The notes beneath the pieces were generated by a model that made no database searches, had not been told where the DNA came from, and saw only the letters and a program-made list of their open reading frames with translations. Both the position numbers and the translations under genes were made by a program. Source: Bdellovibrionota bacterium (GTDB lineage: Bacteria > Bdellovibrionota_G > JALEGL01 > DATDPG01). Taken from it: 32,929 nucleotides of DNA. The DNA lies in contig DATDPG010000031.1 of assembly GCA_035292885.1 (NCBI GenBank), forward strand, positions 1 to 32,929. The letters are read 5' to 3'. This document shows positions 1 to 15,537 of this stretch, piece after piece (the stretch's first letter is position 1; each line of letters begins with the position of its first letter).

Positions 1-22
1 GGTCCGCGTTCCGGCCGGTAGC

Positions 23-676
23 ATGTTCGCAAGAGGAGGATGGGGTGGACCGGTCGTCGCGTTTCTATTCATGTTGACTTACGCAAACGACGTGGGTGCC
101 GCCGACGATGGAATTCGGCGCCACAGCGCCGCCGAGGCCGATCTTGCGGATCATCTGACAGAAACGACATCGGTCGACGACTATTTCGGCCAGCTCCACA
201 GGACGTACGTCGCTCTCCCACCCGAAGAACGGAACGAATATGTCTCCAGATTAGCCGCCTTTTTGAACGGGCCGTACGTTGAACCGGTCGTGCGTCTCCA
301 CGCCGGACCCATCGGAATCTACAACGGTTCCGTGATCAAATATGTCAGCTGTGAATTCTTGACGGATCGATACGATGAATTAAACGCCAAAGTGTCCCAA
401 GGTTTCTTGGATGGAGATCAAGTGGGTGAACTAGTCGCACTAGAACGTCTCTTGAAGAGGGAAAGCGATCTCCGAAAAACTGAATACACGTTCGAGGCCA
501 ACGGGAAACTCTACTACGACGGAAATGCCTGGATGAATTCACCGATTTCGCCAAAGACGGCGCTCCTTCCGGAAGTGGACCTGTCCTGGTGCTCCGATTA
601 CTTGGAGGGCGGATATCTCCAAGATGCTCGAAGATTCCCGGCCCGCCCATCGAGTCTACCGTTCGAGACGCGCTAA
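23..676 (+). CDS. Secreted protein of unknown function
   Basis: 217 residues. I do not recognise the family. The N-terminus reads as a Sec signal peptide: a short Arg-containing start, a hydrophobic stretch at about residues 10-21 (VVAFLFMLTY) and a likely cut after V-G-A near residue 27. The rest is soluble, acidic to neutral, with two Cys (near residues 109 and 191) that could pair in the periplasm. The ATG at 23 has no clear Shine-Dalgarno sequence. The next in-frame ATG, at 71, would destroy the signal peptide, so 23 is preferred. The gene converges on the methyltransferase gene and overlaps its 3' end by 21 bases. Function cannot be inferred from the neighbours because they are on the other strand. 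Confidence 0.7.
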   Translation: MFARGGWGGPVVAFLFMLTYANDVGAADDGIRRHSAAEADLADHLTETTSVDDYFGQLHRTYVALPPEERNEYVSRLAAFLNGPYVEPVVRLHAGPIGIYNGSVIKYVSCEFLTDRYDELNAKVSQGFLDGDQVGELVALERLLKRESDLRKTEYTFEANGKLYYDGNAWMNSPISPKTALLPEVDLSWCSDYLEGGYLQDARRFPARPSSLPFETR

Positions 677-1417
677 ACCCACGTAGCCGAGAATTCGAGA
701 CCCGCTGAATCTAAATTCCAGTTCATCGGAAACACTGCCGGTACGCAGTAGATCGAAAAAGGCCTTTGTGAATATTTTAGGGCGCGTCCCCCGGAACTCT
801 TGAATTCGGAGGCCATATCGCCCGCACAACCGCACGAGTTCGTTCGGCCGAATGAACAGGTGATACAGGTGCAGTCGTTTGGGCGTATTAGCGACTACCC
901 ATTCGACTCCTTTGATGACGATCAGCCAACTCATCCAGTTTCGGTTAAAGGCGTGGAAGAAAAAGATCCCTTCCGGACGAAGAATGCGCCGCACCTCGGA
1001 AATAATTTTTTCCGGATCCTCCACATGTTCGAGAAAATCCATGGCGCAGACGACATCGAAGCTCTTCGGTCGAAAGGGGAGGTAGTAAGCATCCGCGCAT
1101 CCGAATTCGACCCGGCGGGTTTTATCATGTTGCCTCGCGACGAGTAGGCTTTCTTTGGAAACATCCACAGCTTTCACGCGGTGGCCGGCTTTGGCCAACG
1201 CGTTAGAAACGAATCCGCCACCGCATCCGATATCGAGAACGTCGCACGATTTTTCACCGTACGTTCGGCCGATCTCTTCAAGCACCCAAGGGTTCCGGAG
1301 CCGCGTTTCGGCGCGCAGCAGCGCCACGGGGTCGTCCTGTGCTGTGTACCAACGGTCGCCGAGCTGGTTGTAGATCTCCAGGTCTATTTTTTCGGTGTTT
1401 GAACCGTGCCGCGCCAT
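656..1417 (-). CDS. SAM-dependent methyltransferase, UbiG/UbiE-like
   Basis: 253 residues from the ATG at 1417, a class I Rossmann-fold methyltransferase. The SAM-binding motif I is DVLDIGCGGGFVSNAL at about residues 62-77, the acidic end of strand 2 is in VKAVDVS, and the motif 'VVCAMDFLEHVEDPEKII' is typical of UbiG/UbiE O- or C-methyltransferases. The frame is open upstream to 1636, but residues encoded there are Arg/Ser-rich antisense of the upstream gene; homology-like sequence begins with 'GSNTEKIDLEIYNQLGDRWY'. The gene overlaps the upstream membrane-protein gene by 34 bases and is last in the operon with the type III PKS, so a methylation of the polyketide product is likely (inference). 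A ubiquinone role is less likely because no other ubi gene is near. Confidence 0.85.
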   Translation of the reverse strand: MARHGSNTEKIDLEIYNQLGDRWYTAQDDPVALLRAETRLRNPWVLEEIGRTYGEKSCDVLDIGCGGGFVSNALAKAGHRVKAVDVSKESLLVARQHDKTRRVEFGCADAYYLPFRPKSFDVVCAMDFLEHVEDPEKIISEVRRILRPEGIFFFHAFNRNWMSWLIVIKGVEWVVANTPKRLHLYHLFIRPNELVRLCGRYGLRIQEFRGTRPKIFTKAFFDLLRTGSVSDELEFRFSGSRILGYVGLARLER

Positions 1418-1890
1418 ATCCAGTTCCAATAAATGGTTTGATAAAGACCGTACATGACAAGAAACCCTAAAAGCCCGCGCAAAAAGAAAGCGTAAAACGG
1501 AACGTGGGGAACCCAAGCCGATGGAAGATGCGCTTCTCCCATATGAAGAGCCGGCCAGAGAGCGACCGGAAGGACGAGGACGATCGGGTGAATCAAGAAA
1601 AGAAGCGCATGAACCCACTGTTCGCCAGGGGCGCAATGGTCGGAGTGAACGAATTCATCTTTCGTCACGAAAAGGGATGAGACGACCACGCACGCCCCGT
1701 ATAGGATGAGATTCACTGGGCTCGGTGGAATTCGAAAAAGAAAAACGAAACAGCCGATCACCGTAAGCGTATCGAGCGGATGGCCGATTTTTTCCCAACG
1801 CGGCAGGCCGCGCCGGTAATGAAAATAAAACTCATCGACGAACATCAATAGGGCCTGAAAAGCGTACGGAAGGAATACGACCCACCACAT
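1384..1890 (-). CDS. Small integral membrane protein in the PKS operon
   Basis: 168 residues with about four to five hydrophobic segments, near residues 1-17, 40-54, 58-75, 90-112 and 130-150. Family not recognised with certainty. A motif with charged and His residues, 'DEFYFHYRRGLPRWEKIGHPLD', lies between the first two segments and could form a membrane-surface active or binding site. The ATG at 1890 follows the PKS stop codon by only three bases, which points to co-transcription and probably translational coupling. Its 3' end overlaps the methyltransferase start. Placed between a type III PKS and a methyltransferase, it may modify or handle a lipid-like product in the membrane (inference only). 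Confidence 0.75.
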   Translation of the reverse strand: MWWVVFLPYAFQALLMFVDEFYFHYRRGLPRWEKIGHPLDTLTVIGCFVFLFRIPPSPVNLILYGACVVVSSLFVTKDEFVHSDHCAPGEQWVHALLFLIHPIVLVLPVALWPALHMGEAHLPSAWVPHVPFYAFFLRGLLGFLVMYGLYQTIYWNWIWRGTVQTPKK

Positions 1891-1893
1891 GGC

Positions 1894-3048
1894 TTACCGT
1901 TTTTCCAAGAGACACCCTCCAGCCGTCAGCCCCGGGCCGAACGTTACACTCGCGATCAACGATCCCGCCAAGACCGCGGGATCTTCGGCCATCTGCCTCC
2001 ATATATAAGGAAGCGTGGCGGAGGACATGTTGCCGTAAGAACGAAGGACGGACCGGCTATGGGCGATCTGATCTTCCCTTAGGCGGAGCGTGTCCAAAAC
2101 GCGGTCGAGAATGGCCGGACCTCCCGGATGAAGCGCGATCAAGATTCGATCGCGTTTTTTCTGGAAATCCATTTCAGCCTCAGCAAAAAGGCGTTCCAAA
2201 AAATGCTCGATCGCGCGGGCCGTCAGGATCGGGACATCGCGCGAGAGCGTCATCGTGAAACCCCAGTCCGAGCAGAGCCACGTCATTGCATCTGTTGAAT
2301 CGGGCAAGAGCTCTTCTCGAACCGCCAGCAATACAAAACTTGGAGACGGGTTCGCGGCGTTCTCGATCTTTCGCTCCAAGGAATACCGGATATGGCCGTC
2401 GGCGAAGAGGCTTTGGACGACAAACTGATCCGGTGTGTGGAGGGAAGGATTGAGATGAAGTGTACAGAGTTCCGTGTGTGCGATGTCGGCTCTGCCCCGC
2501 CCGCTCTGAAGAAATCCGCGGGCGATGCGAAGCGCGGGGATCGTTCCGTAACATCCCATGTGATAGGCGTGCGTAACGGTCGTCCGTTCCCCCCACCCAT
2601 TTTGAGCGACGACTTCTTGCGCCGCGCTCGGGGAGACATATCCGGTGCATGAGACATGAATAAGATCGTCGGGAGGCGCACTGTCCGCCGGATACCATCT
2701 TTCAAATAAATCCGAGACACGTTCACGGAAAAAACGCATTCGCGCCTCGAGACCCAGTCCTTCCGGTCGGTCGAGTAAGCGAAAAATTTTCATTTCCGGC
2801 CAATTCGTATGTTGAAAATCGGAAAGTTCATGCCGACGGGTCAAAATTTGGCCGACGTTACAGCCGTAACGGTCGACGAGAGTTCTCATTTTTTCTCGAA
2901 TTGTGTCGACCGCTTGACCCGACGCCCGAAGTTTTGTGGCTTCGGCCTGCGTATGGGCCTCGGCCAACCACCGACCCGCAACTTCTTGTTTGATCTCGTA
3001 CGGCGGGAGAAGCGGTTGGAAGTTCGTTAAGACGATGGGGTCCGACAT
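1894..3048 (-). CDS. Type III polyketide synthase (chalcone/stilbene synthase family)
   Basis: 384 residues, the usual length for a type III PKS with a thiolase fold. The Cys-His-Asn triad can be placed: Cys166 in 'HMGCYGTIPALRIA', His307 in 'IALHPGGPAILD' and Asn340 in 'SYGNMSSATLPYIW'. The C-terminal 'FGPGLTAGGCLLEKR' matches the glycine-rich end of the family. Members condense malonyl-CoA units onto an acyl-CoA starter; bacterial ones commonly make alkylresorcinols, alkylpyrones or tetrahydroxynaphthalene, and which applies here cannot be read from sequence. It opens a three-gene minus-strand operon with a membrane protein and a methyltransferase. Only 29 bases separate its start from the divergent ABC ATPase gene, so promoters for the two must overlap or lie inside coding sequence. 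Confidence 0.88.
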   Translation of the reverse strand: MSDPIVLTNFQPLLPPYEIKQEVAGRWLAEAHTQAEATKLRASGQAVDTIREKMRTLVDRYGCNVGQILTRRHELSDFQHTNWPEMKIFRLLDRPEGLGLEARMRFFRERVSDLFERWYPADSAPPDDLIHVSCTGYVSPSAAQEVVAQNGWGERTTVTHAYHMGCYGTIPALRIARGFLQSGRGRADIAHTELCTLHLNPSLHTPDQFVVQSLFADGHIRYSLERKIENAANPSPSFVLLAVREELLPDSTDAMTWLCSDWGFTMTLSRDVPILTARAIEHFLERLFAEAEMDFQKKRDRILIALHPGGPAILDRVLDTLRLREDQIAHSRSVLRSYGNMSSATLPYIWRQMAEDPAVLAGSLIASVTFGPGLTAGGCLLEKR

Positions 3049-3077
3049 CGGCCGGTTGTACCAAAGGGTTTCCTAAC

Positions 3078-4088
3078 TTGAAAGGGGTCAGGCCGTCCGA
3101 TACGTTGAACGAACACGTGCAATCGACGCTTCTGGACGTTCGGAGTCTCTCCATCGGGTTCCGGGCGGGGAAAAAATTTCATCGAGCGGTCGACCAGATT
3201 TCGTTTCATCTGGAACGGGGGGAAACATTTTCCCTCGTCGGAGAATCCGGCTGCGGTAAAACGGTCACGGCTCTTTCGCTTCTTCGCCTGATTACGTATC
3301 CCCCCGGAAAAATCGAGTCGGGGGAGATCCGCTATGACGGCCGGGATCTCTTGCAAATTCCCCTCGGCCAGATGCGCCGCATTCGTGGAAAAGAAATCGC
3401 GATGATTTTTCAGGAGCCGATGACGTCCCTCAATCCGGTGTTCACCGTCGGAGACCAAATTGCCGAAGCGATCGAAGTTCACCAACGGGTCGGATCCCAC
3501 GAAGCCAAGGCAAGAGCGTGCGAGGCCATGCATCGAGTCGGGTTTCCGGCTCCCAAAGAGCGGTACGACGATTATCCGCACCAAATGAGCGGCGGGATGC
3601 GCCAGAGGATCATGATCGCGATGGCGCTCTCCTGTAATCCGAAAGTTTTGGTCGCGGACGAACCGACGACGGCTTTGGACGTGACGATTCAGGCGCAGAT
3701 CTTGGCGCTTATCGACCAGCTTCAAGAGGAGACTCAAATGGGCGTGCTTCTCATTACGCACGACCTCGGCGTCGTCGCTGAAGTGGCCGATCGTGTCGCC
3801 GTTATGTACGCAGGCGTCATCGTCGAATTGGCGAATGTGAAGAATCTTTTTGCTCACCCTCGGCACCCTTATACCCAAGCGCTCTATCGATCGATTCCGA
3901 GGCCCGGCGCGCATAGTTCCAAGGAAAAACTGGAGGTGATTCCGGGTCGCGTCCCCCCGCTGGGCGCGGTCCCGCCGTATTGCCGCTTTTACGATCGGTG
4001 TCCTCTCGCCGCGGCGGAGTGTAAAGAGCGCGAACCGGATTTACGGGAAGTCAGTCCGGGCCATTTTGTCCGTTGCATAAAAGCATGA
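3078..4088 (+). CDS. oppD: Oligopeptide/dipeptide ABC transporter ATPase, OppD/DppD type
   Basis: 336 residues. Walker A is GESGCGKT at residues 55-62, the Q-loop is in '[20 protein letters not shown]', the ABC signature is 'MSGGMRQRI' and Walker B with catalytic Glu is '[12 protein letters not shown]'. The C-terminal oligopeptide-type extension holds four Cys ('[15 protein letters not shown]' and a final C), the pattern linked to an Fe-S cluster in some DppD proteins. The start is uncertain: TTG at 3078 has AAAGGG about nine bases upstream; GTG at 3117 is an alternative closer to the first conserved residues. It overlaps the next ATPase gene by ATGA. No permease or substrate-binding protein gene lies nearby, so the ATPases must work with partners encoded elsewhere. 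Confidence 0.9.
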
Positions 4089-5047
4089 CGCCGCTTTTGG
4101 AAGTTCAGCGGCTCCGAAAATGGTTTCCGATCCGGGCCGGTCTTTTGCGCCGACCGAAAGGGAATGTTCACGCCGTGGAGAACATTTCTCTGGAAGTAAA
4201 CGAAGGCGAAACCGTAGGTCTGGTCGGAGAATCGGGCTGTGGAAAGACGACGTTGGGGCGCATGATCCTGCGGCTGGTGGAGCCGACGGCAGGGAGTGTC
4301 CGGTTTGAGGGAGAAGACGTCACCGCCATGGCCGAGGACCAACTCCGAGCCTGGCGGCGAAAAGCGCAGATGATTTTTCAGGACCCGTACGGATCGCTCA
4401 ATCCTCGGATGAAGATTCAAGACATCGTCGGCGAGGCGCTGGTGATTCATCGTCTGGCGCCGCACAAGGAAATTCCCGATCGTGTGGCCGCTCTCCTGGA
4501 AACGGTCGGTCTTTCGTCGGACACGCTTTACAAATTTCCCCATGAGTTCAGCGGCGGGCAGCGCCAGAGAATCGGAATCGCCCGGGCGCTGGCCGTTCAA
4601 CCGAAATTCATTGTCGCCGATGAGCCGGTTTCCGCGCTCGACGTTTCCATACAGGCGCAGATCATGAATCTCCTTTTGGACCTCCGAAAAAAATTCAAGC
4701 TCTCCTACCTCTTCATCTCCCACGATTTGCGCGTGGTGGAGTTCATCTCGGATCGCGTCGCCGTGATGTATCTCGGGCGCCTGATGGAGCTGCTGCCGGG
4801 CTTAGGTCTTTCGCAAGCGGCCAAGCATCCGTACACGAAGGCACTCTTGGCATCTGTGCCGATTCCGGATCCATCCAGGCGGCGAACGCGAATCGTTTTG
4901 GGAGGTGACGTTCCGAATCCTGCGAGTCCTCCTTCGGGATGTGTCTTTCATCCAAGATGCCCGATCGCCGAGAGCCGGTGCAAAACGGAAGTGCCTGTGT
5001 TAAGGCAGATTGCGCCCGGCCATACCGTGGCCTGTCATTTCGTATGA
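4085..5047 (+). CDS. oppF: Oligopeptide/dipeptide ABC transporter ATPase, OppF/DppF type
   Basis: 320 residues from the ATG at 4085, which overlaps the stop of the preceding gene (ATGA). An in-frame TTG four codons earlier is possible but less likely. Walker A is GESGCGKT, the Q-loop is '[16 protein letters not shown]', the signature is '[15 protein letters not shown]', Walker B is '[12 protein letters not shown]', and the H-loop is '[12 protein letters not shown]'. The Cys-containing C-terminal extension ('[14 protein letters not shown]') is again of the oligopeptide type. OppD and OppF normally form the asymmetric ATPase dimer of a peptide importer. The stop codon overlaps the RNase J start by ATGA, so three functionally different proteins share one tightly coupled operon. 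Confidence 0.9.
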
Positions 5048-6702
5048 AAAAAACGCTCAAAATCCTTCCGATCGGAGGTCTGGGAGAGATCGGAATGAAC
5101 CTGATGGTCGTTCAGTACGGCTCCGAGGCGATCGTCGTCGATTGCGGCATCATGTTCTCCGACCACCATTTGCCGGGAATCGACCTGATCGTCCCGGACT
5201 TCAGCTATCTTTTGGAACCCCAAATCAATTTTAGCGCGATCGTTCTAACCCACGGGCACGAGGACCACATCGGCGCCGTCCCGTTTCTCCTTCGGGAGCG
5301 GAATGTCCCGATCTACGGCTCCCGCTTTACGCTGGCGTTGGTCAAGGAAAAACTTCGGGAACATGAGCTCCTGCGCGATGCCGAATTGGAGCTCGTGAAA
5401 GACGGAGATCAGGTCACGATCGGGCCGTTTCGGATCGAGTTCGTCCGGATGAGCCATTCCATCGCGGATGCGATGGGGCTCGCGATCGAAACGCCCGAGG
5501 GGACGATTTTTCATACGGGCGATTTCAAAATTGATCCCAAACCGGCCGACGGGAGGACCACCGATCTGGAAAGAATCGGCGTGCTGGGGAAAAAGGGAGT
5601 CCTGCTTCTTCTATCGGACAGCACGAACGTGGATGTGCCGGGGACGAGCCTTTCCGAAAGTTCGGTTCGCCAAGATCTCGAAAAATTGATCGGCGACGCG
5701 CCCGGCTGGGTGATCGTCGCCTGCTTTGCTTCGCACATCCCGAGGCTCAAGCAGGTCACCGAGATCGCTTTGGCGTCCGACAAGAAGGTCCTTCTGGCGG
5801 GGCGATCGATGATTCAAAACGTCGGGATCGGTCGCGAGCTTGGCTACCTGCGTTTTCCCGACGATTTGTTGATCGACATCTCCGATGTGGGGCGGTTGCC
5901 GCGCGACCGGGTCGTTATCGTGGCTACCGGGACGCAGGGGGAGCCGCGATCCGCTCTTGCGCGAATGGCGATCGATCAGCACAAGGAGCTCAAAGTGCTT
6001 CCGGGGGACCGGGTGGTGCTTTCGTCGCGTTTCATTCCGGGGAACGAGCGGGCGATTTTTTCCATCGTAAACCACATGTATCGCCGGGGGGCGGAAGTCT
6101 TCACGAACCGAGGTTCGGATATCCATGTATCGGGGCATGCGTACCGGGAAGACCTGAAGACCATGCTGAAGACAGTCCGGCCGCAATATTTCGTGCCGGT
6201 GCACGGGGAATTTCGGCATTTGGTGGAGCATGTGAAACTAGCGCACGAGACCGGAATGCCGAAGGAGAGGGCCTTTCTGCTCGAAGACGGCATGGGGGTT
6301 ACATTTTCCGGCGGGGTTGCCAAGCGCCTTCCGCCGCTCGATCTGCGCCGGTCTGTATTGGACGGTCGCGAACTGGGAGACATCGGAAGCGCGGTCCTGC
6401 GCGACCGCCGCCAATTGGCGGAAACCGGGATGGTGGTGGTGGTGGCGATTTTGGACGCGCATTCCGGCGAACTGGTTCGCGGACCCGAACTCTTCGCCAG
6501 AGGCGTGGCGTTTGAGGAAGTGGCCGAGGATCTCATGGCGGAAGCCAAGGAGGTCGTTCGCGACACATTGGAGGATTTTGGCCCCGAGGCGCGCACGGAG
6601 AACGTCGCCGTGCAGGAGGAGATCCGCCTGGCCCTCCGCCGATTCTTCAAAAACGCCCTCGACCGCAAGCCGGTCGTTATTCCGATCGTCCTCGAGGTTT
6701 GA
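5044..6702 (+). CDS. rnj: Ribonuclease J
   Basis: 552 residues, a standard RNase J length. It is a metallo-beta-lactamase/beta-CASP nuclease that acts as a 5'-3' exonuclease and endonuclease in RNA turnover. The zinc-binding motif HGHEDH is at residues 70-75, further ligands lie in 'FHTGDFKID' and 'PVHGEFRH', and the beta-CASP region has 'HVSGHA'. The C-terminal domain follows ('[22 protein letters not shown]'). The frame is open from 4939, but ATG 5044 is chosen because it overlaps the ABC gene stop by ATGA and begins with the typical '[14 protein letters not shown]'. A weak terminator follows. A decayed copy of the part encoding the C-terminal domain is found at 7966-8150. The rnj-ftsK-lolA order seems to be the ancestral backbone here. 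Confidence 0.96.
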
Positions 6703-6713
6703 CAGACAGCGGC

Positions 6714-6737
6714 GGCGTCGCCACGCCTCAGTTTTTT
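6714..6737 (+). terminator. Candidate intrinsic terminator after rnj
   Basis: A five-pair GC stem, GGCGT (6714-6718) with ACGCC (6723-6727), and a four-base loop are followed after four bases by a run of six T at 6732-6737. The stem is short, so it may be weak, but it lies 11 bases after the rnj stop and ends the ABC-rnj operon in the right place. Confidence 0.5.
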
Positions 6738-6816
6738 AAAGTTTGCACGGCGCGCTGCATCAGAGTATAGCCCGTTCGAAGTGCTCTCCCACTCCCAACC
6801 TGATGTGAGGTGATTT

Positions 6817-7965
6817 GTGCGAAATATAAAGTTCCTTTTAACAGTTTCGGTAACCCTGATGCTCGGCGGTCTGGTCAGACCGACGGCGACTTTGGGAGCT
6901 CCCTGTGTCCCCGATGACGGCGACCGGATCTTTGGGGGTAGCGTCGATCCTTCGGGAGTGGCAGTGGATACCGCCGGGAATCTTTATGTGGCAGATTACG
7001 CAGGCGACCAGGTACTCGGATACAACAGCCCCCTTACGGACCAGACCGCTGACCGGATGCTTGTGGGCCTCAATGATCCCAAAGGCATCGCGTTCGGCCC
7101 TGACGGCAACCTATATGTCGTGGATACTAAAAACAAGCAGGTTGTCAGGTACAATAGCCCTTCTTTCTCGGGTCCCTTCTCCGTACTTGGATCTACAACC
7201 CATCTCTATTGGTTGGCGATCGACTCCCTCGGCAAATTCTATGTCTCGGATCTGAAACGCGTGTTTATCTTCGACTTTGGCAGTGGGGTGACCACCATCA
7301 ATGTTCCCTTCGCGATAGGGGGGCTGGCCGTGGACGGTGCGGGCAATCTCTTTGTCTCGGATCCGAAGGGTGGCCGTGTGTTTGAGTATGACAGTCCCCA
7401 CGTAACAAACCAGGCACCGAACAGGACGATTACAGGATTAAATACTCCTATAGGTTTGACCTACGCCGGCGGCAAGCTCTATGTTGCGGACAACGGTGAC
7501 AACCAGATCGTGGTTTATGATAACCCGACCACGAACCTGACTCCAGACGGGTTCATCGGGGCTGGAGAACTCCATAGTCCTGACGGTGTGGCAGTAGATG
7601 GGTCCGGCAATGTCTTTGTGATGGAGGAGTACAGCAATCGCGTCCTGGAGTTCGACGCTAACCATGTTACGGGAGCATCGAATATTCAGCTCGTTAGCGG
7701 TTCCCCAATGGGGGGGAACAGCGCGACCCTGTCGTGGGCGACGACGGCTGAAACCGACCTCGAAGGCTTTAACGTCGCAGCGTGTGACAATAAGGGCACC
7801 CGCGTTCAGCTGAATCCGAGCCTGATCCGGTGCGAGCAGTGTATTACCGGACTGGGAAGCTCGTATTCGTTCATCGTCCCCGACAAGCCGGCCGGGAGCA
7901 CGGACGTCTTCATTGAAGTGGTGCACCAGAATACCACGGTGGAAACCTTCGGCCCGGCTCAGTAA
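6817..7965 (+). CDS. Secreted NHL-repeat beta-propeller protein
   Basis: 382 residues from a GTG start with a good ribosome-binding site (GAGGTGA just upstream). The signal peptide is at residues 1-27 (hydrophobic core VSVTLMLGGLV, cut near TLGA). Six NHL-type repeats of the form 'GVAVD..GNLYVADY..DQVLGYNSP' span about residues 40-285 and would fold as a six-bladed propeller. About 95 C-terminal residues ('SATLSWATTAETDLEGFNV...') look like a fibronectin-III-like beta-sandwich with three Cys. NHL propellers usually bind protein, peptide or carbohydrate; the ligand here is unknown. Its codon use looks less GC-biased than that of rnj. It sits between intact rnj and a decayed rnj copy, so it is likely an insertion into an older locus. 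Confidence 0.85.
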   Translation: MRNIKFLLTVSVTLMLGGLVRPTATLGAPCVPDDGDRIFGGSVDPSGVAVDTAGNLYVADYAGDQVLGYNSPLTDQTADRMLVGLNDPKGIAFGPDGNLYVVDTKNKQVVRYNSPSFSGPFSVLGSTTHLYWLAIDSLGKFYVSDLKRVFIFDFGSGVTTINVPFAIGGLAVDGAGNLFVSDPKGGRVFEYDSPHVTNQAPNRTITGLNTPIGLTYAGGKLYVADNGDNQIVVYDNPTTNLTPDGFIGAGELHSPDGVAVDGSGNVFVMEEYSNRVLEFDANHVTGASNIQLVSGSPMGGNSATLSWATTAETDLEGFNVAACDNKGTRVQLNPSLIRCEQCITGLGSSYSFIVPDKPAGSTDVFIEVVHQNTTVETFGPAQ

Positions 7966-8150
7966 AACGGTATGGACTGGATACGCGGCTCCGCCCTCTG
8001 AGGACAGCGTTCGGGAGTTTTTACCGGGATGGTCGGTCTGATCGCGATTCTGGACGCTCACTCGGGGCAACTGGTTCGCGGCCCCGAACTCTTCGCCAGG
8101 GGTCTGGCATTTGAAGAGACGGCTGAGGACCTTTCAGAAAGCCTTTCGCG
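7966..8150 (+). pseudogene. Decayed copy of the RNase J C-terminal coding region
   Basis: Reading from directly after the NHL gene stop, the frame gives a sequence that aligns with RNase J residues from about 440: 'IRGSAL' then an in-frame TGA, then '[16 protein letters not shown]' and '[21 protein letters not shown]'. The intact gene has 'IGSAVL...[16 protein letters not shown]' and '[21 protein letters not shown]'. Identity is about 75-80% over the best 35 residues and many DNA differences fall at third codon positions, so this is an old coding copy and not recent duplication. Similarity fades after about 8140. An ATG-initiated frame from 8029 to 8253 exists, but its second half runs into AT-rich DNA and it is not considered a gene. 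It may be a remnant of a second rnj or a displaced 3' end. Confidence 0.8.
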
Positions 8151-8248
8151 CGTTACCAGGGTTGCGGCAAGGAGTGCTCGGAGACCTCAGAAATCGAACG
8201 CTATTTTTTTATTTTTAATGGACATCTATTTGTTATTATTGTTTATTT

Positions 8249-8277
8249 TATAATAATTGTAAACACGTTAAAAGTGT
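8249..8277 (+). promoter_or_regulatory. Candidate promoter and operator of the VapBC-type pair
   Basis: The 80 bases before the antitoxin start are strikingly AT-rich. A perfect -10 box TATAAT lies at 8249-8254; no convincing -35 box is seen. Downstream, ACAC (8263-8266) and GTGT (8274-8277) form a small inverted repeat between the -10 box and the start codon, a usual place for autoregulation by a VapB dimer. The operator role is inference. Confidence 0.4.
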
Positions 8278-8292
8278 GCTACACATAAAGCC

Positions 8293-8556
8293 GTGCAAGA
8301 TAAGACGCAATCTGGAAAGGATAAGAAGCGAAATCTCACGCTCCGCTTGGACGCAAACTTGATCCGAAAAGCGCGTGTTTTGGCCGCTCAGCGGGGGGCA
8401 TCCATCAGTCGATTGCTCTCAAAACAGATCGAACTGCTCGTTCGCGACGAAGATCGGTACAACGTCGCCAAACGGAAATCACTTGAATGGATAAGACAGG
8501 GCTTTCATTTGGGAGGAAAGATCACAGCGACGCGGGATGAATGGCATGAACGATGA
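8293..8556 (+). CDS. VapB-type antitoxin
   Basis: 87 residues from a GTG start. The sequence 'KKRNLTLRLDANLIRKARVLAAQRGASISRLLSKQIELLV' is a ribbon-helix-helix-type DNA-binding segment (strand, then two helices) of the kind seen in DUF6364-like antitoxins paired with PIN toxins. The C-terminal part ('WIRQGFHLGGKITATRDEWHER') would wrap the toxin active site. It overlaps the toxin gene by 20 bases, the typical organisation of a type II module. It is expected to neutralise the PIN nuclease and repress its own promoter. Located in the rnj-ftsK accessory insert with AT-rich flanking DNA, which fits horizontal gain. Confidence 0.82.
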   Translation: MQDKTQSGKDKKRNLTLRLDANLIRKARVLAAQRGASISRLLSKQIELLVRDEDRYNVAKRKSLEWIRQGFHLGGKITATRDEWHER

Positions 8557-8968
8557 CACGTTTGTGGATACGAATGTACTCATTTATGCCCACGATTTAG
8601 ACGCGGGCCGAAAGCATGAGATTGCTGCCGATCTTCTCGAGAAACTCTGGACAAACCGGCGCGGCGTCCTGAGCACGCAAGTGCTTCAGGAATTTTATGT
8701 GAATGTTACGCGCAAGATTTCTCACCCGATTTCCAAGTCAACAGCGCGCGAAATTGTGTCGGGATACACGGCGTGGAAGGTGGAAAATGTAACGAGCGAC
8801 CACGTTCTGCGAGCCTCCGAGTTGGAGGAACGTCACCAACTTTCCTTTTGGGATGCGCTTATCGTTTCCGCCGCCCTTTCGGCCGGGGCCGAACGGGTTC
8901 TTTCGGAGGATATGAGCCACCAACAGGGGATTCTTGGACTGCGGATTGAAAATCCGTTCGTGCCCTAG
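8537..8968 (+). CDS. vapC: PIN-domain ribonuclease toxin, VapC family
   Basis: 143 residues if the ATG at 8537 is used; the ATG at 8546 is an equally good start. The four acidic residues of the PIN fold can be placed: Asp11 in 'FVDTNVLIYAHD', Glu52 in 'VLQEFYVNV', Asp106 in 'SFWDALIVSAAL' and Asp125 in 'VLSEDMSH'. VapC toxins are Mg-dependent endoribonucleases, usually cutting tRNA or rRNA; the target is unknown here. All catalytic acids are intact, so the toxin looks functional. The 20-base overlap with the antitoxin gene supports coupled translation. Confidence 0.9.
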   Translation: MNGMNDDTFVDTNVLIYAHDLDAGRKHEIAADLLEKLWTNRRGVLSTQVLQEFYVNVTRKISHPISKSTAREIVSGYTAWKVENVTSDHVLRASELEERHQLSFWDALIVSAALSAGAERVLSEDMSHQQGILGLRIENPFVP

Positions 8969-9068
8969 TCGGCCCCTGCGGTCTCCGCTTTACTGTGTTC
9001 CGAGCCGCCGATCGGACGGCGTCCCGCGGAATCAAAGACTCTCCATCATTCTCACCTTCATCGACACG

Positions 9069-9096
9069 TTGCGCCTAGACGCGCCTCGGATATAAT
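9069..9096 (+). promoter_or_regulatory. Candidate sigma-70 promoter of ftsK
   Basis: TTGCGC (9069-9074) and a perfect TATAAT (9091-9096) are 16 bases apart and lie 24 bases before the ftsK ATG. Only the first three bases of the -35 box match consensus. This would free ftsK from the toxin-antitoxin module upstream. Confidence 0.55.
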
Positions 9097-9120
9097 TTCT
9101 GGAATCGTTGGGCGTTGCGG

Positions 9121-11517
9121 ATGGCTAAAGAAAAAGAAGATTTATCGACCCCACTTCGCGATCTGGCGGGATTTCTTTTATTGGCGTTCGCGATTTTTCT
9201 TTTCCTTTCCCTGATCAGTTACAGCCCCCTCGACCCCTCGCTCAATACAAAAGTGGCGGGATCTCCGTCCGCCGTGCACAACTGGTGCGGGATCGGCGGG
9301 AGTTACGCGTCCGACATTTTCATGCAGCTTTTTGGGTTTGCGTCGTTTTTCGTCCCGTTCGCTTTGGTGGGCGTGGCTTGGGCGGTCGTCTTTCGGAAAA
9401 GCTGGCAAGGGGCTTCGGCCCAAGCTTCGGGCTTTATTCTCCTGGTTCTGGCGGCCACGCTCTTCTTGGCCTTGGCCGCGGGCGACGCGGCTCGGTTCCC
9501 CCCATGGGGAGGGGTGACCGGGTTTCTGCTCCGGAAACTCTGCCTCGCGTATGTCGGAACCATCGGCGCACTGCTGGCCGGCCTAACCGCTCTGGCCGTG
9601 GCGTTGGTTCTTTCCGTTCGGCTGACGTTTGAAGCGTTCGTCGGAAAGCTCTCGTTCCTGGGTGATGCTTTCCTCCATTCCCGGGAGATCCTTGCAAGAG
9701 CGTGGCAGCGTGTGAACCGATCCGCAGCACGTTTCCTGGAGCTGGAGGAAAAGAAGATTGAGAAGGGGATGGCCAAGATCCGCGCCGATGTGGGCGAGCC
9801 GTCGATCTCGGTTTCGGACAGCATCAAAGTCGCCGGAGAGGTGGTGACGGAAAACGTACTTATGGATGATTTTTCGATCGAGGCTCCGGCGAAAGAAATC
9901 CCCATCGTTTTTCCCAAGGCCAGCGACCGGCGTTCGATGCCCCAGTTCCATACGATGGAAGAGGAACCGGAAGAGGCCAAAGCGCACAAAGATAAGCGGG
10001 ACATCCGAACCTACAAGCTCCCCGACATTTCGCTCTTGGACGCTCCGGAAGAACAGTCGATCGCGATCGATCGCGAGGAGCTCTTCCGAAACGCCCAGAC
10101 GTTGGAACAGAAGCTCAAGGACTTTGGTGTCTTCGGGAAGGTGGTGGAAGTTCAGCCCGGCCCGGTGATCACGATGTACGAGTTTGAGCCGGCACCCGGC
10201 ATCAAAGTCACGCACGTCACACGATTGAACGACGATCTGGCGCTCGCCCTCAAAGCCATGTCCGTTCGCATCACTCCTCTGCCCGGGAAAGCGGTGATCG
10301 GAATCGAAGTCGCCAACCGCCAACGCCAGGTGGTTTATCTCAAGGACGTCATCGCCGACGACGTCTTCAAACAGGGTTCGTCCCGCCTGACGTTCGCTCT
10401 GGGCAAAGATATCTCCGGCACGCCTTTTGTGACCGATCTCCGAAAAATGCCGCATCTTTTGGTGGCGGGCGCCACAGGCTCCGGAAAGTCGGTTTCGGTC
10501 AACAGCATGATTCTCTCGGTGCTTTACAAATCGACGCCGGACGAAGTGCGGATGATTCTCGTCGATCCGAAGATGTTGGAATTGTCTTTTTACGACAACA
10601 TCCCGCACCTGTTGCTTCCCGTGGTGACCGACCCGAGGAAAGCCTCGGCGGCGCTCCGGTGGGCCGTACTCGAAATGGAGCATCGGTACCGGTTTATGGC
10701 CGACATCGGCGTACGGAACATCGAAGGTTACAACAAGAAGGTGCCCAAAATTCTGGACGGGAAGGTGTCGCCGGAGGAAGCGAAGAAAAGCGCCCAAGAT
10801 CTTTCCCTTCCCGAAGATCTCTTGGCGTCCGGAGAGAAAGTGAAACCCGAAGAACACACGGGTCCGATGCCGTACATCATGATCGTCATCGACGAGCTGG
10901 CCGACCTCATGATGATTTCCAGCCGGGAGGTCGAGGAATCGATCATTCGTCTTTCTCAAATGGCTCGCGCGGCCGGGATCCACCTTCTTCTGGCGACGCA
11001 AAGACCGTCCGTGGATGTCATCACGGGCGTCATCAAGGCCAATATGCCCGCGCGAATTTCGTTTCAGGTTTCGTCCAAGATCGATTCCCGGACGATTCTC
11101 GACGCCAACGGCGCGGAACTTCTCTTGGGCGCCGGCGACATGCTCTTCCTGCCGCCGGGGACGTCCAAGCTGGAGCGAATTCACGGCGCTTTCGTCACCG
11201 ACAACGAAGTAAAACGGGTGACCGACTTCTGGAAGGAACAGGGTTCGCCCGACTACGATCATGAGATATTGCGCGTACAGCAGGAAGAGATGGAGCGGGA
11301 AGCCTCGGGGGAGGGCGAGGACAACGAGATGTACCAACAGGCGCTCAACATCATCCGTCTTCACCGAGTGGCGTCCATCTCCATGATCCAGCGGAAACTT
11401 CGGATCGGTTACAACCGGGCGGCGCGGATCGTGGAGAGGATGGACGACGAGGGGTGGCTGGCGCCGGGCGAAGTGGGCAAGCCGCGCGAAGTCCGCATGA
11501 GTCGATTTGAAGTTTGA
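9121..11517 (+). CDS. ftsK: DNA translocase FtsK/SpoIIIE
   Basis: 798 residues from the ATG at 9121 (an in-frame TTG two codons earlier is ignored). The N-terminal membrane domain has four hydrophobic segments within residues 15-170. A moderately charged linker (about 175-300) leads to the alpha/beta/gamma motor. Walker A is GATGSGKS at about residues 450-457, Walker B is 'IMIVIDELADLMM', and the C-terminal winged-helix gamma domain follows from about residue 735 ('ALNIIRLHRVASISMIQRKLRIGYNRAARIVERMDDEGW'), which reads KOPS-type polar sequences. FtsK pumps DNA through the division septum and activates XerCD at dif. The linker is short, as in many non-enteric bacteria. A large inverted repeat follows the stop. 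Confidence 0.97.
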   Translation: MAKEKEDLSTPLRDLAGFLLLAFAIFLFLSLISYSPLDPSLNTKVAGSPSAVHNWCGIGGSYASDIFMQLFGFASFFVPFALVGVAWAVVFRKSWQGASAQASGFILLVLAATLFLALAAGDAARFPPWGGVTGFLLRKLCLAYVGTIGALLAGLTALAVALVLSVRLTFEAFVGKLSFLGDAFLHSREILARAWQRVNRSAARFLELEEKKIEKGMAKIRADVGEPSISVSDSIKVAGEVVTENVLMDDFSIEAPAKEIPIVFPKASDRRSMPQFHTMEEEPEEAKAHKDKRDIRTYKLPDISLLDAPEEQSIAIDREELFRNAQTLEQKLKDFGVFGKVVEVQPGPVITMYEFEPAPGIKVTHVTRLNDDLALALKAMSVRITPLPGKAVIGIEVANRQRQVVYLKDVIADDVFKQGSSRLTFALGKDISGTPFVTDLRKMPHLLVAGATGSGKSVSVNSMILSVLYKSTPDEVRMILVDPKMLELSFYDNIPHLLLPVVTDPRKASAALRWAVLEMEHRYRFMADIGVRNIEGYNKKVPKILDGKVSPEEAKKSAQDLSLPEDLLASGEKVKPEEHTGPMPYIMIVIDELADLMMISSREVEESIIRLSQMARAAGIHLLLATQRPSVDVITGVIKANMPARISFQVSSKIDSRTILDANGAELLLGAGDMLFLPPGTSKLERIHGAFVTDNEVKRVTDFWKEQGSPDYDHEILRVQQEEMEREASGEGEDNEMYQQALNIIRLHRVASISMIQRKLRIGYNRAARIVERMDDEGWLAPGEVGKPREVRMSRFEV

Positions 11518-11537
11518 TTCACAACATCGAGGAACAG

Positions 11538-11639
11538 AAAACGACGATTGGGCTCCGGTCCCGACGGGAGCCCCCAAGTCCATGCTCATGCTTGCGCGTG
11601 GACTTGGGGATCCCCGTCGGGCCACCCAATCGTCGTTTT
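11538..11639. repeat. 102-bp imperfect inverted repeat after ftsK
   Basis: Three perfect stem blocks are nested: AAAACGACGATTGGG (11538-11552) with 11625-11639, CCCGACGGG (11560-11568) with 11613-11621, and CCCCAAGTCCA (11572-11582) with 11599-11609, giving 35 pairs around a 16-base loop at 11583-11598. Asymmetric internal loops separate the blocks. Its ends, A-run on the left and T-run on the right, would suit a bidirectional terminator; size and perfect 15-base terminal repeats would also suit a MITE- or REP-like element. No clear target duplication is seen. It lies 20 bases after the ftsK stop and 7 before the next gene. Confidence 0.85.
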
Positions 11640-11646
11640 AACCGCG

Positions 11647-12621
11647 ATGATCTGGTTCCATATTCGCCAAATTGCTCGACCGACCTCGCCGCATCTCGTT
11701 TTCTTCGCTGTGCTTTGTTTAATAAGTGGTCAGAGCGTCGCGCGGGAAGATCTGGTTGTTTTATATACGGGAAATACGAGGGGGGAGGTGGGGCCGTGCG
11801 GGTGCGCGACGGAGAATTTGGGCGGGTTGGCCCGCCGGGCCGCGTTCGTGCGCGGCGAAAGAGGACGCGGCGTTCCCCTTCTCCTGGTCGATTCGGGGGA
11901 CGACCTTTCGTACGCTCCCATCGCCACGTTGCCGGTCCATTTACGGAAGGAAGCCGATCGAAGCGCTCAGCTGATTTCCCGCATTTACGAGTCCCTGCAG
12001 TACGACGCCATCTTGCGCGGGGAGGCCGATATTTTCGACGGCCGCGGTTTCGGGTCTCCCGAATTCGATCGTTCGCCGGCGCTCCGGATCGTGGAAAGGT
12101 CGGGATGGCGTGTCGCCATTTTCGGTTTCGGATCCCCAAACCTTTTTCCCCGGTTCGACGAGAATTGGAGAGCCGAAATTGCGAAGATTCGGCCGAAAGT
12201 CGACCTAGTTCTCGTTCTCGCGCATATCGCCGAGACGGAGATTTCCGGCATCGCGAAGGTCCTCAAGCGCGGAGACATCGTGATCCTCGGGCATACGGGG
12301 AAACACCTAGACGATCCAATCCTTCGGAAGGATGTTCTTTTTTTCGAAGCGGACTATCGCGGGCAATTTGTCGGCAAACTCCAGCTGCATCTGGAAAGCG
12401 ATAAGCTGTCGACAAAAAATCAGATCGATCGATTGCGGCTGGAAGACGATCTCCGCTTTTCGGAAGAACCCGCAGCCCGGAAGCAAATCGAGGAGCGAAT
12501 TAAATCCCTGGGCCCCCGCCCCAAAAGCTGGTACGCGAATGAGCTTGTTCCCTTAAGCGAACGAGTTTCGCCGGACCGCGAAATTCTGAAACAGGTTGAA
12601 TCGGTGACGAGGAAAAACTAG
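11647..12621 (+). CDS. Exported UshA-like metallophosphatase-type protein
   Basis: 324 residues from the ATG at 11647; the frame is open upstream but that part is the inverted repeat. A signal peptide ends near residue 32 (hydrophobic VFFAVLCLI, then SGQSVA). The mature start 'VVLYTGNTRGEVGPCGCATENLGGLARR' is the first motif of the UshA/5'-nucleotidase-like calcineurin superfamily, with a PCGC at residues 50-53 that replaces the usual metal-binding sequence context. Later motifs are partly kept: 'LVDSGDDLS' for GD, 'GEADIF' in place of GNHE, 'LVLAHIAETE', and 'GHTGKH' for GHxH. The missing GNHE Asn-His makes normal phosphatase activity doubtful. It is between ftsK and lolA and shares the lolA transcription unit (10-base gap). 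Confidence 0.75.
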   Translation: MIWFHIRQIARPTSPHLVFFAVLCLISGQSVAREDLVVLYTGNTRGEVGPCGCATENLGGLARRAAFVRGERGRGVPLLLVDSGDDLSYAPIATLPVHLRKEADRSAQLISRIYESLQYDAILRGEADIFDGRGFGSPEFDRSPALRIVERSGWRVAIFGFGSPNLFPRFDENWRAEIAKIRPKVDLVLVLAHIAETEISGIAKVLKRGDIVILGHTGKHLDDPILRKDVLFFEADYRGQFVGKLQLHLESDKLSTKNQIDRLRLEDDLRFSEEPAARKQIEERIKSLGPRPKSWYANELVPLSERVSPDREILKQVESVTRKN

Positions 12622-12631
12622 TCTGCATCGC

Positions 12632-13300
12632 ATGTTCAAGAAAATAATTCCGGCAGCGTGCCTTCTGACTTGGGCGGTGTCCGCAAACGGCGCCGAGGTT
12701 CAGGGAGTCGTCGATCAACTCCAAAAGAGCTACGACCATATTCAATCGATCGAAGCGAATTTCGAGCAAACGTATCGCTCCAAGCGATTCGACGAAAAGA
12801 TAAATCGAGGGAAGCTGGCGATCGTAAAACCGGGCAAGATGCGATGGGACTACCGTGAACCCAAAGGAAAGGTTCTGGTGTCCAACGGCAAGGAAATTCT
12901 CTTATACGACCCCGAAGATCACCAGGCGCTGGTCACGCCTCAGCCGGCGCAAAGCGACCTTCCGGTGGCGTTGGCGTTCTTGTGGGGTGGCGCCAAATTG
13001 ACCGACAAATTCACGGTCTCGCTGAAGGGCGAAAAAAAAACAGAAGATAAACAGGAAACGACGCTTCGTTGTCTCCCGAAGGAGCCGATTCCGAACGTGA
13101 AGGAAGTTTTCCTGACCGTTCGGTCGGGCGAGCCGATGCTGGTGGTCGCATCCCGCGTGATCGACTCGTTGGAGGGAGAAAGTGAAATCCGCTTTACGGA
13201 TATTCGCGTGAACCCTTCGATCGAGAACCGGCGCTTCGAATTCAAACCTCCTAAAAATACGCCGATCGTCTCTATGCCAAGCTTGAACGTGAAGCCGTAA
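12632..13300 (+). CDS. lolA: Outer-membrane lipoprotein carrier protein LolA
   Basis: 222 residues with a signal peptide at 1-20 (cut near ANGA). The mature part has the family features: 'LQKSYDHIQSIEANFEQTYRS' helix, 'GKLAIVKPGKMRWDYREPKGKVLVSNGKEILLYDPEDHQ' strands, and 'LPVALAFLWGG'. LolA shuttles lipoproteins from the LolCDE inner-membrane release complex to the outer membrane, so the organism is diderm. The C-terminus carries an extra tail, 'PPKNTPIVSMPSLNVKP', beyond the usual family end 'NRRFEFKP'. That tail and the bases just past the stop recur in decayed form at 15437-15480. The ftsK-lolA neighbourhood is common in proteobacteria. Confidence 0.93.
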   Translation: MFKKIIPAACLLTWAVSANGAEVQGVVDQLQKSYDHIQSIEANFEQTYRSKRFDEKINRGKLAIVKPGKMRWDYREPKGKVLVSNGKEILLYDPEDHQALVTPQPAQSDLPVALAFLWGGAKLTDKFTVSLKGEKKTEDKQETTLRCLPKEPIPNVKEVFLTVRSGEPMLVVASRVIDSLEGESEIRFTDIRVNPSIENRRFEFKPPKNTPIVSMPSLNVKP

Positions 13301-13348
13301 AATCTCACGCTCTAGTCCGAGTTCCGGAATTCGAGGAAGCTGAATTGT

Positions 13349-15184
13349 TTACTTTGCGGGCCCTTTGACAATCAGCCGCGCGAATTCCTTGGCTCTCGCG
13401 GCTGTCGCCTTGTCCTTCTCGTTCTCGCTTCGCCACTCGGTGATGTCGAGCGCGGTTTCCCCCTTGTCATTTTCGACCGTCCGGTCCACGTTGGCGTCGA
13501 TCAGAAGTTTCGCGACATCCACCGACAAACTCTTGTCCGCGGCGAGCTGAAGAGCCGTGTCCCCCCGGCTCGTCAGCGCGTTCACATTCGCGCTCTTGCC
13601 GAGAAGCGCTTTCACGGCATCTTTGTTCCCCTCCCGGGCGGCAAGATGGAGGGGAGTTGCGTTCGTTTCCTCCGCCTGAGCCTCGATTTTGGCGCCGTTC
13701 TCCAACAACAGTGCAATGAGTTCAGCGGAGCCGGCTGCCGCCGCCCGATGAAGCGGCAATAAAGCCGACGGAGCCGAGGGATCGGCTCCCTTCGAAAGCA
13801 AATACCGGACGGCTTCGGTGCGCCCTAAGAGCGACGCGTAGTGGATCGGCGCCTGCCCCAGCGCATCCTTCGTCCCCGCGAGGCTCGCGTCTTTTTCCAG
13901 GATCCGGCGAAGTGCTTCGGTGTCACCTTTAAACGCGGCCTCGTGAACCGGGACGGAAAGGGCGGCCCCCTTCTCGACGAGCAATGAAGCGCATGCCCCG
14001 CATCCTCCGTAGACCATCCACTCGAGGGGAGTCGCCCCTTTCCGATCTTTCGCATTCGGCGCGGCACCCGCTTTGAGGAGGATCTCGATAATGCCGGGGT
14101 CGAGGGCGTGGCTGAGCGGTGTTCTCTCTCCGCGATCTTTCGAGTCGACCGATCCGCCGGTGGAAACGAGTTTCTGTGTCAAAAGAGTTACGAGGGTTGG
14201 CTTCCCATTTTTCACAACGAGATGCAGCGCCGTTTCACCTTTTCGGTTCAGGTGGTCAACCCGGGTCTTCTTCTCGATGAGTAGGGCTGCCACTTTCATC
14301 GACCCGAGGAGGCAGCACTCCTGCAACGGGGTGTTCCCCACGCCGTTCATCGTGTTCGGATCCGCTCCGTTCCGGAGAAGAAGTTGCGCGAGATCGGTCC
14401 GATCCCCCATGCAGGAGAAATGCAGCGGCCGGTTCCCTCGTCCTCCTTCGGCATTCGCCAGCGCACGCTGCTTTTTAAGGAGCTTCTGGACGAGGGCGAT
14501 CTTTCCGTCCGCCACGGCGTCGTGAATTTCCCCGTCGTATACTGGCTCCTGGCCTTTATTCCTAAGGAACTCGAAGATCTCCATCGATCCCTCGTCGCCG
14601 GCCAGTTCCACCGGCTTCCGACCGACGCGATCCCGGACGGAAAGGTCGGCTCCAGCCGAGACCAGCGTTTTCACGACGTCCGGTTTTGCGGACCGGATTC
14701 CCGCTAGCAGCGCTGTTTCGCCCTCGGCGTCGTCGGCGCGGATATCCGCTCCCTTTTTCAGGAGAAGCTTCACAACCTCGTTATTCCCTTTCAGTGCGGC
14801 GGTGGTGAGGAGGGAGTTTCCTTTCGTGTCGAGAGTCTTGATGTCGGCGCCCGATTCGATCAGGAGGATCGCGTTCGGCGTATGGCCCGCTTTGATCGCC
14901 ACCTGTAACGGCGTAATGCCGCCGCCGTCCGGCTCGTTCGGCCCGGCGCCGCCTTTAAGAAGCGTCTCGAGGACGGTCCGGTTGCCGATCCCCGCGGCCA
15001 GCGTGAGGGGCGTGAACCCCTCCCGGTTCCGGGCATGCAGGAGGGCGGGTTCTTTCTTAACGATGCGCTGAACGTTGTCGAGCCGCTGCGCCTTGATCGC
15101 CGTGAAGAGATCAGGCGCCGTCGGCTTTCCGCACGCGGTGAGGACCACCAGCGCCAGAACCATCTTCCGAATCCGCAGCCTCAT
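13349..15184 (-). CDS. Ankyrin-repeat lipoprotein
   Basis: 611 residues from the ATG at 15184. The start is chosen because it gives a lipoprotein signal peptide, 'MRLRIRKMVLALVVLTAC' with lipobox L-T-A-C and Cys18; the open frame upstream to 15280 would spoil it. The rest is a nearly continuous solenoid of about 16-17 ankyrin repeats of the type 'G.TPLHLAA..G....V..LL..GA.'. Ankyrin arrays bind proteins. Here the lipid anchor puts the array in the periplasm or on the outer membrane surface. The gene is on the opposite strand to lolA, ends 48 bases from it and lies between intact lolA and a decayed copy of the lolA end, so it looks like an insertion. Confidence 0.92.
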   Translation of the reverse strand: MRLRIRKMVLALVVLTACGKPTAPDLFTAIKAQRLDNVQRIVKKEPALLHARNREGFTPLTLAAGIGNRTVLETLLKGGAGPNEPDGGGITPLQVAIKAGHTPNAILLIESGADIKTLDTKGNSLLTTAALKGNNEVVKLLLKKGADIRADDAEGETALLAGIRSAKPDVVKTLVSAGADLSVRDRVGRKPVELAGDEGSMEIFEFLRNKGQEPVYDGEIHDAVADGKIALVQKLLKKQRALANAEGGRGNRPLHFSCMGDRTDLAQLLLRNGADPNTMNGVGNTPLQECCLLGSMKVAALLIEKKTRVDHLNRKGETALHLVVKNGKPTLVTLLTQKLVSTGGSVDSKDRGERTPLSHALDPGIIEILLKAGAAPNAKDRKGATPLEWMVYGGCGACASLLVEKGAALSVPVHEAAFKGDTEALRRILEKDASLAGTKDALGQAPIHYASLLGRTEAVRYLLSKGADPSAPSALLPLHRAAAAGSAELIALLLENGAKIEAQAEETNATPLHLAAREGNKDAVKALLGKSANVNALTSRGDTALQLAADKSLSVDVAKLLIDANVDRTVENDKGETALDITEWRSENEKDKATAARAKEFARLIVKGPAK

Positions 15185-15537
15185 GATTTTTCGTCGTACG
15201 TTTTTCGTTTCGTCGGGTTCTTGAGCGTCATGTAAGTCTCCACCATCCGTTTTCAGCGACCGGCTGTTCGTCGAAGTCAATCGATTCGAAGGAGTTTATT
15301 ACCCACTGTCGCTTATACGCCCTTTCTATGAGGCAGCAGCGCAAGGTGTCAAGGTTGATTCATCGCCCTCAGCGGACGTTCGGTGAGACCGGACGAACAC
15401 CGACCGGTCGAGACAGAGAAGTACGTTGCCAGGATTCCTATTGTTTCGATGCCGAACTCCGATGTGAAGCCGCAAAATCTGGCGACAAGAAAAGATTTCT
15501 TTTCGTGGAGATGCTCGTGAGGTAACAGGAAAAGAGC
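15185..15537. other. Intergenic region between ankyrin and hybrid kinase genes
   Basis: 353 bases with no gene. It should hold the promoter of the minus-strand ankyrin gene and of the plus-strand kinase, but no strong -35/-10 pair stands out. Its recognisable content is the lolA-like remnant at 15437-15480 and, at 15527-15533, AGGAAAA as ribosome-binding site of the kinase gene. A short open frame from 15328 looks random. Confidence 0.6.
15437..15480 (+). pseudogene. Decayed copy of the lolA 3' end
   Basis: In one frame this stretch reads 'PIVSMPNSDVKP' followed by Gln in place of the stop, against 'PIVSMPSLNVKP' plus stop at the end of LolA (13261-13300). The DNA match continues past the lolA stop (AAAATCT in both). 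By hand count about 33 of 44 bases agree, and most differences in the coding part fall at third positions. Upstream of 15437 similarity is marginal. It is either a remnant of a second lolA or a displaced 3' end; chance similarity is not excluded because the match is short. Confidence 0.55.

Follow-up and report, generated by a model that had tools for sequence, protein, structure and literature searches.

A 110-bp fragment (8023–8132, plus strand) in the gap between rnj and ftsK of a Bdellovibrionota genome is very probably a gene remnant of a second copy of rnj. Within the 32,929-nt stretch of DNA that we analyzed (hereafter, the window), it follows the intact rnj at a distance of 1.3 kb and on the same strand. 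The intact gene (5044–6702, plus strand) encodes an RNase J of 552 aa with Pfam b-CASP, RMMBL, and RNase_J_C domains. The fragment's pattern of substitutions indicates that most of its divergence took place while it was a functioning RNase J sequence under selection at the protein level, and that it was cut down later and comparatively recently. These analyses narrow its origin, with displacement of a once-working rnj allele by recombination slightly favored over the loss of a tandem paralogue.

Comparison of rnj with the rnj–ftsK gap gave a single blastn block, in which 8023–8132 matched 6424–6533 (plus strand; rnj codons 461–497) without gaps at 87 of 110 positions (79%; E = 2e-22 in the search of the locus, 9.5e-20 genome-wide), a score reached by none of 1000 shuffles. 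No other portion of window positions 1–6720 was found to be duplicated anywhere in the 3.1-Mb genome. The initial annotation, which placed a duplicate of the RNase J C-terminal region beyond an NHL-repeat gene, was thus correct about its existence, but the extent that it gave, 7966–8150, was not confirmed: homology to rnj breaks off sharply at both edges of the block. The remnant was also said to begin right at the NHL stop codon (7963–7965), yet the intervening 57 bp (7966–8022) aligned to rnj no better than shuffled sequence (p = 0.6–0.75 for DNA, p = 0.08 for in-frame protein) and gave p = 0.26–1.0 when an extension into rnj was anchored at the edge of the block. The right flank (8133–8292) was similarly indistinguishable from shuffles (p = 0.07–0.33), and its edge-anchored extensions gave p = 0.05–1.0, the strongest (p = 0.053) under one scoring scheme; a few further degraded rnj codons on this side are possible. 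Aligning the end of rnj with the region past the NHL gene, as had been proposed, recovered one significant block and nothing significant outside it.

The frame is open throughout the 110-bp core, with neither a stop nor a frameshift, and runs on as a 74-codon open reading frame (ORF) from an ATG (8029–8253). The TGA that had been read as an in-frame stop and a sign of decay (7999–8001) sits in the unaligned left flank. On its own, the fragment scored above the curated cut-off of the Pfam RNase_J_C profile (PF17770; 27.5 versus 23.8 bits), with 26.4 bits in a search of the genome. The domain is incomplete: 12–58 of the 102 profile positions were matched when 8005–8181 was the query, and positions 12–66 were covered in the genome search. 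Like other remnants and pseudogenes, the fragment duplicates part of a gene whose full-length copy survives in the same genome. Such sequences are also marked by loosened constraint or by disabling mutations; neither was seen within the region of homology, and what disables the fragment is truncation at both ends. A search for conserved RNA structure in the fragment found nothing unusual (folding z-scores of −1.19 and 0.09).

The differences between the fragment and rnj are concentrated at third codon positions, as had been noted previously: 15 of the 23 fall there, with six at first and two at second positions. Estimates by NG86 and YN00 gave dN of 0.09–0.10 and dS of 0.97–0.99 (over 36 codons, so that a dS near 1 is imprecise). 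We simulated divergence with the fragment branch neutral throughout and could reject this history at p = 0.001–0.005, or at p = 0.014–0.05 under a conservative split (36 codons in each case). Amino-acid changes as few as those observed arose in 0–0.1% of matched neutral runs with equal branches and in 1.4–1.7% of neutral runs that placed 70% of the time on the intact branch, while simulations with constrained branches fit the observed pattern. A duplicate decaying neutrally since its birth is rejected by these simulations, with the caveat that they rest on 36 codons. The aligned core shows purifying selection (dN/dS of about 0.1) rather than decay, and the description "decayed" holds only in that the sequence is truncated at both ends. 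Together, the bias in codon position and the rejection of a neutral branch indicate that the fragment accumulated most of its differences while still functioning as protein-coding sequence.

The fragment is closer to this rnj than to any other. The two share 30 of 37 core residues (81%), whereas about 104 other RNase J sequences share at most 17 of 37 (≤46%) with this rnj over the same segment, and the nearest sequence from the same order shares 10 of 37. A tree of the segment placed the fragment and this rnj as sisters with 94% support; the closest relatives in a long genome scan were only 42–47% identical. Measured against the diversity of the order, the fragment's split from rnj is therefore recent, unlike the old divergence of J1/J2-type paralogues. 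In J1/J2 pairs, both rnj genes are full-length and diverged long ago; this genome has one full rnj, and searches of it returned the intact gene and the fragment only. Of the two origins first proposed, a tandem (J1/J2-like) rnj paralogue or a displaced 3' end, what stands is the remnant of a second rnj copy; the J1/J2-like age is disfavored.

We compared the locus with three genomes of the same order (G001, G002, and G003), all from other families and with RNase J proteins 45–53% identical to this one. Neither a second rnj nor an rnj remnant was present in any of the three, rnj–ftsK gaps included, so the second copy is known from this genome alone among those compared. The two arrangements that had been proposed as telling, a full second rnj or a direct rnj–ftsK junction, were both absent from these order-mates. 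Synteny was rearranged in G001; G002 and G003 keep rnj followed by ftsK on one strand with unrelated genes between them (a 233-aa gene in one, weakly radical-SAM-like and DUF4130 genes in the other), and in G002 the ABC gene also precedes this pair and lolA follows it. Synteny on either side of 6400–9200 in the window speaks against an assembly join in that region. The unrelated genes in these gaps indicate that the rnj–ftsK gap collects such genes. Across the order (L118–L120), different families hold different unrelated genes there, and the gap looks like a tolerant insertion site.

In the window, rnj is followed by a terminator-like stem and T-run just past its stop (6714–6735, plus strand; a consensus match only, from a pattern scan), so that rnj appears to keep its whole 3' end. 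Next come the NHL-repeat beta-propeller gene (6817–7965, plus strand; Pfam NHL), the fragment, AT-rich DNA (8181–8292, within the right flank), an antitoxin-like and PIN-domain pair, a dispersed repeat, and ftsK. The pair (8293–8968, plus strand) is VapBC-like: a gene for a small protein of the DUF6364/CopG type overlaps a PIN-domain, toxin-like gene, and the DNA upstream has a GC content of 27%. The repeat between the vapC-like gene and ftsK (9007–9053) has a conserved GATCGGACGGCGTCCCGCGG core and six copies in the genome (in the window and on contigs C19, C55, C60, C154, and C164 of this assembly, G000). Several other copies have about 17 bp between two CCGATCGG boxes; these bases are missing from the window copy, as though recombination between the boxes had removed them. 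A second dispersed repeat (11538–11639), partly self-complementary and REP- or MITE-like, lies between ftsK and the next gene and recurs at about nine other places in the genome (77–94% identity), some of them matched on both strands.

Composition did not separate the two rnj sequences: by GC3, neither the fragment nor rnj was set apart as foreign, and no marked difference was found between the copies. The C-terminus of the intact RNase J was 24–28% identical to its order-mates versus a median of 35% to outsiders, and the order-mates' own C-termini are degenerate. Among the RNases J sampled, it was the closest or joint-closest C-terminal relative of two of the three order-mates, whose C-termini were each 28% identical to it versus a maximum of 27–28% to outsiders. 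A foreign C-terminus, considered as a sign that the intact gene had been replaced, found no clear support, as the low identity reflects the order-mates' degenerate C-termini. Separately, we observed that the C-terminal domain is strongly diverged in the three order-mate RNases J (L009, L013, and L015, of G001–G003; median 17–22% identity to other phyla, compared with 36–43% for their N-terminal parts), while the RNase J of this genome keeps a canonical C-terminal domain (35%).

The origin to which we lean, at somewhat less than an even chance, is that the fragment is the non-functional leftover of another rnj allele, one that used to work and was displaced by recombination at the rnj locus. 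DNA from a related strain or species, with a full rnj and perhaps also the NHL gene that follows, would have recombined at this locus; its 5' side would have joined by homology and its other side illegitimately, inside the 3' end of the resident rnj. The old 3' end would then have been left stranded behind the new downstream DNA, and later deletions, together with the arrival of the PIN toxin–antitoxin-like pair and AT-rich DNA, may have trimmed it to 110 bp. Homologous exchange at one end with illegitimate joining at the other is known as homology-facilitated illegitimate recombination (PMC3240628), and an excess of pseudogenes in prokaryotes has been put down to horizontal transfers that failed (PMC522871). 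Since the fragment lies on the same strand as rnj and 1.3 kb from it, a local recombination event is more probable than chance insertion at this site. The NHL gene, single-copy and absent from the order-mates in own-genome and phylum searches, also counts in favor of displacement, as does the finding that the other window genes within 1–6720 or 9100–15300 have no comparable scraps in the genome. Counted against it are the GC3 values, which are not foreign-looking in either sequence, and an intact C-terminus with no clear sign of foreign replacement. The main competing account, which is only slightly less probable and explains the adjacency, shared strand, sharp edges, and constrained divergence almost as well as displacement does, holds that rnj was duplicated within the lineage, that both copies worked until dS reached about 1, and that deletion and insertion then removed all but 110 bp of the second. 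Adjacency on the same strand, divergence under constraint, and the similar composition of the copies all agree with such a stub of a tandem paralogue. It requires, however, a duplication, long retention without gene conversion, and then two deletions, its age is not J1/J2-like, and neither a second rnj nor a remnant occurs in the three order-mates, whose distance nevertheless leaves room for a duplication after they split off.

The sharp edges of the fragment, with nothing recognizable as rnj beyond 110 bp, would also suit a short piece of rnj that was captured and pasted in by end-joining or template switching, with no full second gene ever present in the genome. We regard this as improbable: had the piece been copied from the resident rnj, it would have had to diverge neutrally, which the simulations reject, and had it come from elsewhere, its position beside the cognate gene would be a coincidence. 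The open frame from an ATG and the low dN/dS might instead point to a working small gene (8029–8253; 74 aa) that joins an RNase J C-terminal strand-helix to a hydrophobic tail. This is very improbable, since about half of the RNase_J_C profile is missing (12–58 of 102 matched), making it unlikely to fold as that domain, and its tail derives from AT-rich DNA. Nor was a relative of it found on plasmids, in viral contigs, or in the order-mates; the plasmid search with this ORF was a weak test, as was the search of viral contigs with the intact C-terminus, which likewise found no relatives. Still more remote is selection on the ORF for modulation of the neighboring RNase J, either by an RNase J-derived peptide or by an RNA acting on the rnj mRNA. 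On present sequence evidence, any function of the fragment is unlikely.

The fragment is genomic debris of an ordinary sort, smaller than first described, and it leaves general understanding unchanged. It is a short scrap of a gene that can still be read, its codon-position bias telling of divergence as a working gene followed by trimming, contrary to the common view that duplicates begin to decay as soon as they arise. It also documents that, in several families of the order, unrelated genes enter the rnj–ftsK gap. Among known systems, it resembles the gene remnants and truncated pseudogenes of bacteria (PMC522871) in being a partial, intergenic copy of a housekeeping gene beside lineage-specific genes, but it is very short (110 bp), with an uninterrupted core and a clear signature of purifying selection. 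With the RNase J1/J2 pairs of Firmicutes it shares the presence of two rnj-derived sequences in one genome, although the second here comprises only 37 codons, adjacent to the first and its recent sister. The products of homology-facilitated illegitimate recombination (PMC3240628) would likewise have one homologous and one illegitimate join and a partial duplication, although the event proposed here is read from present sequence.
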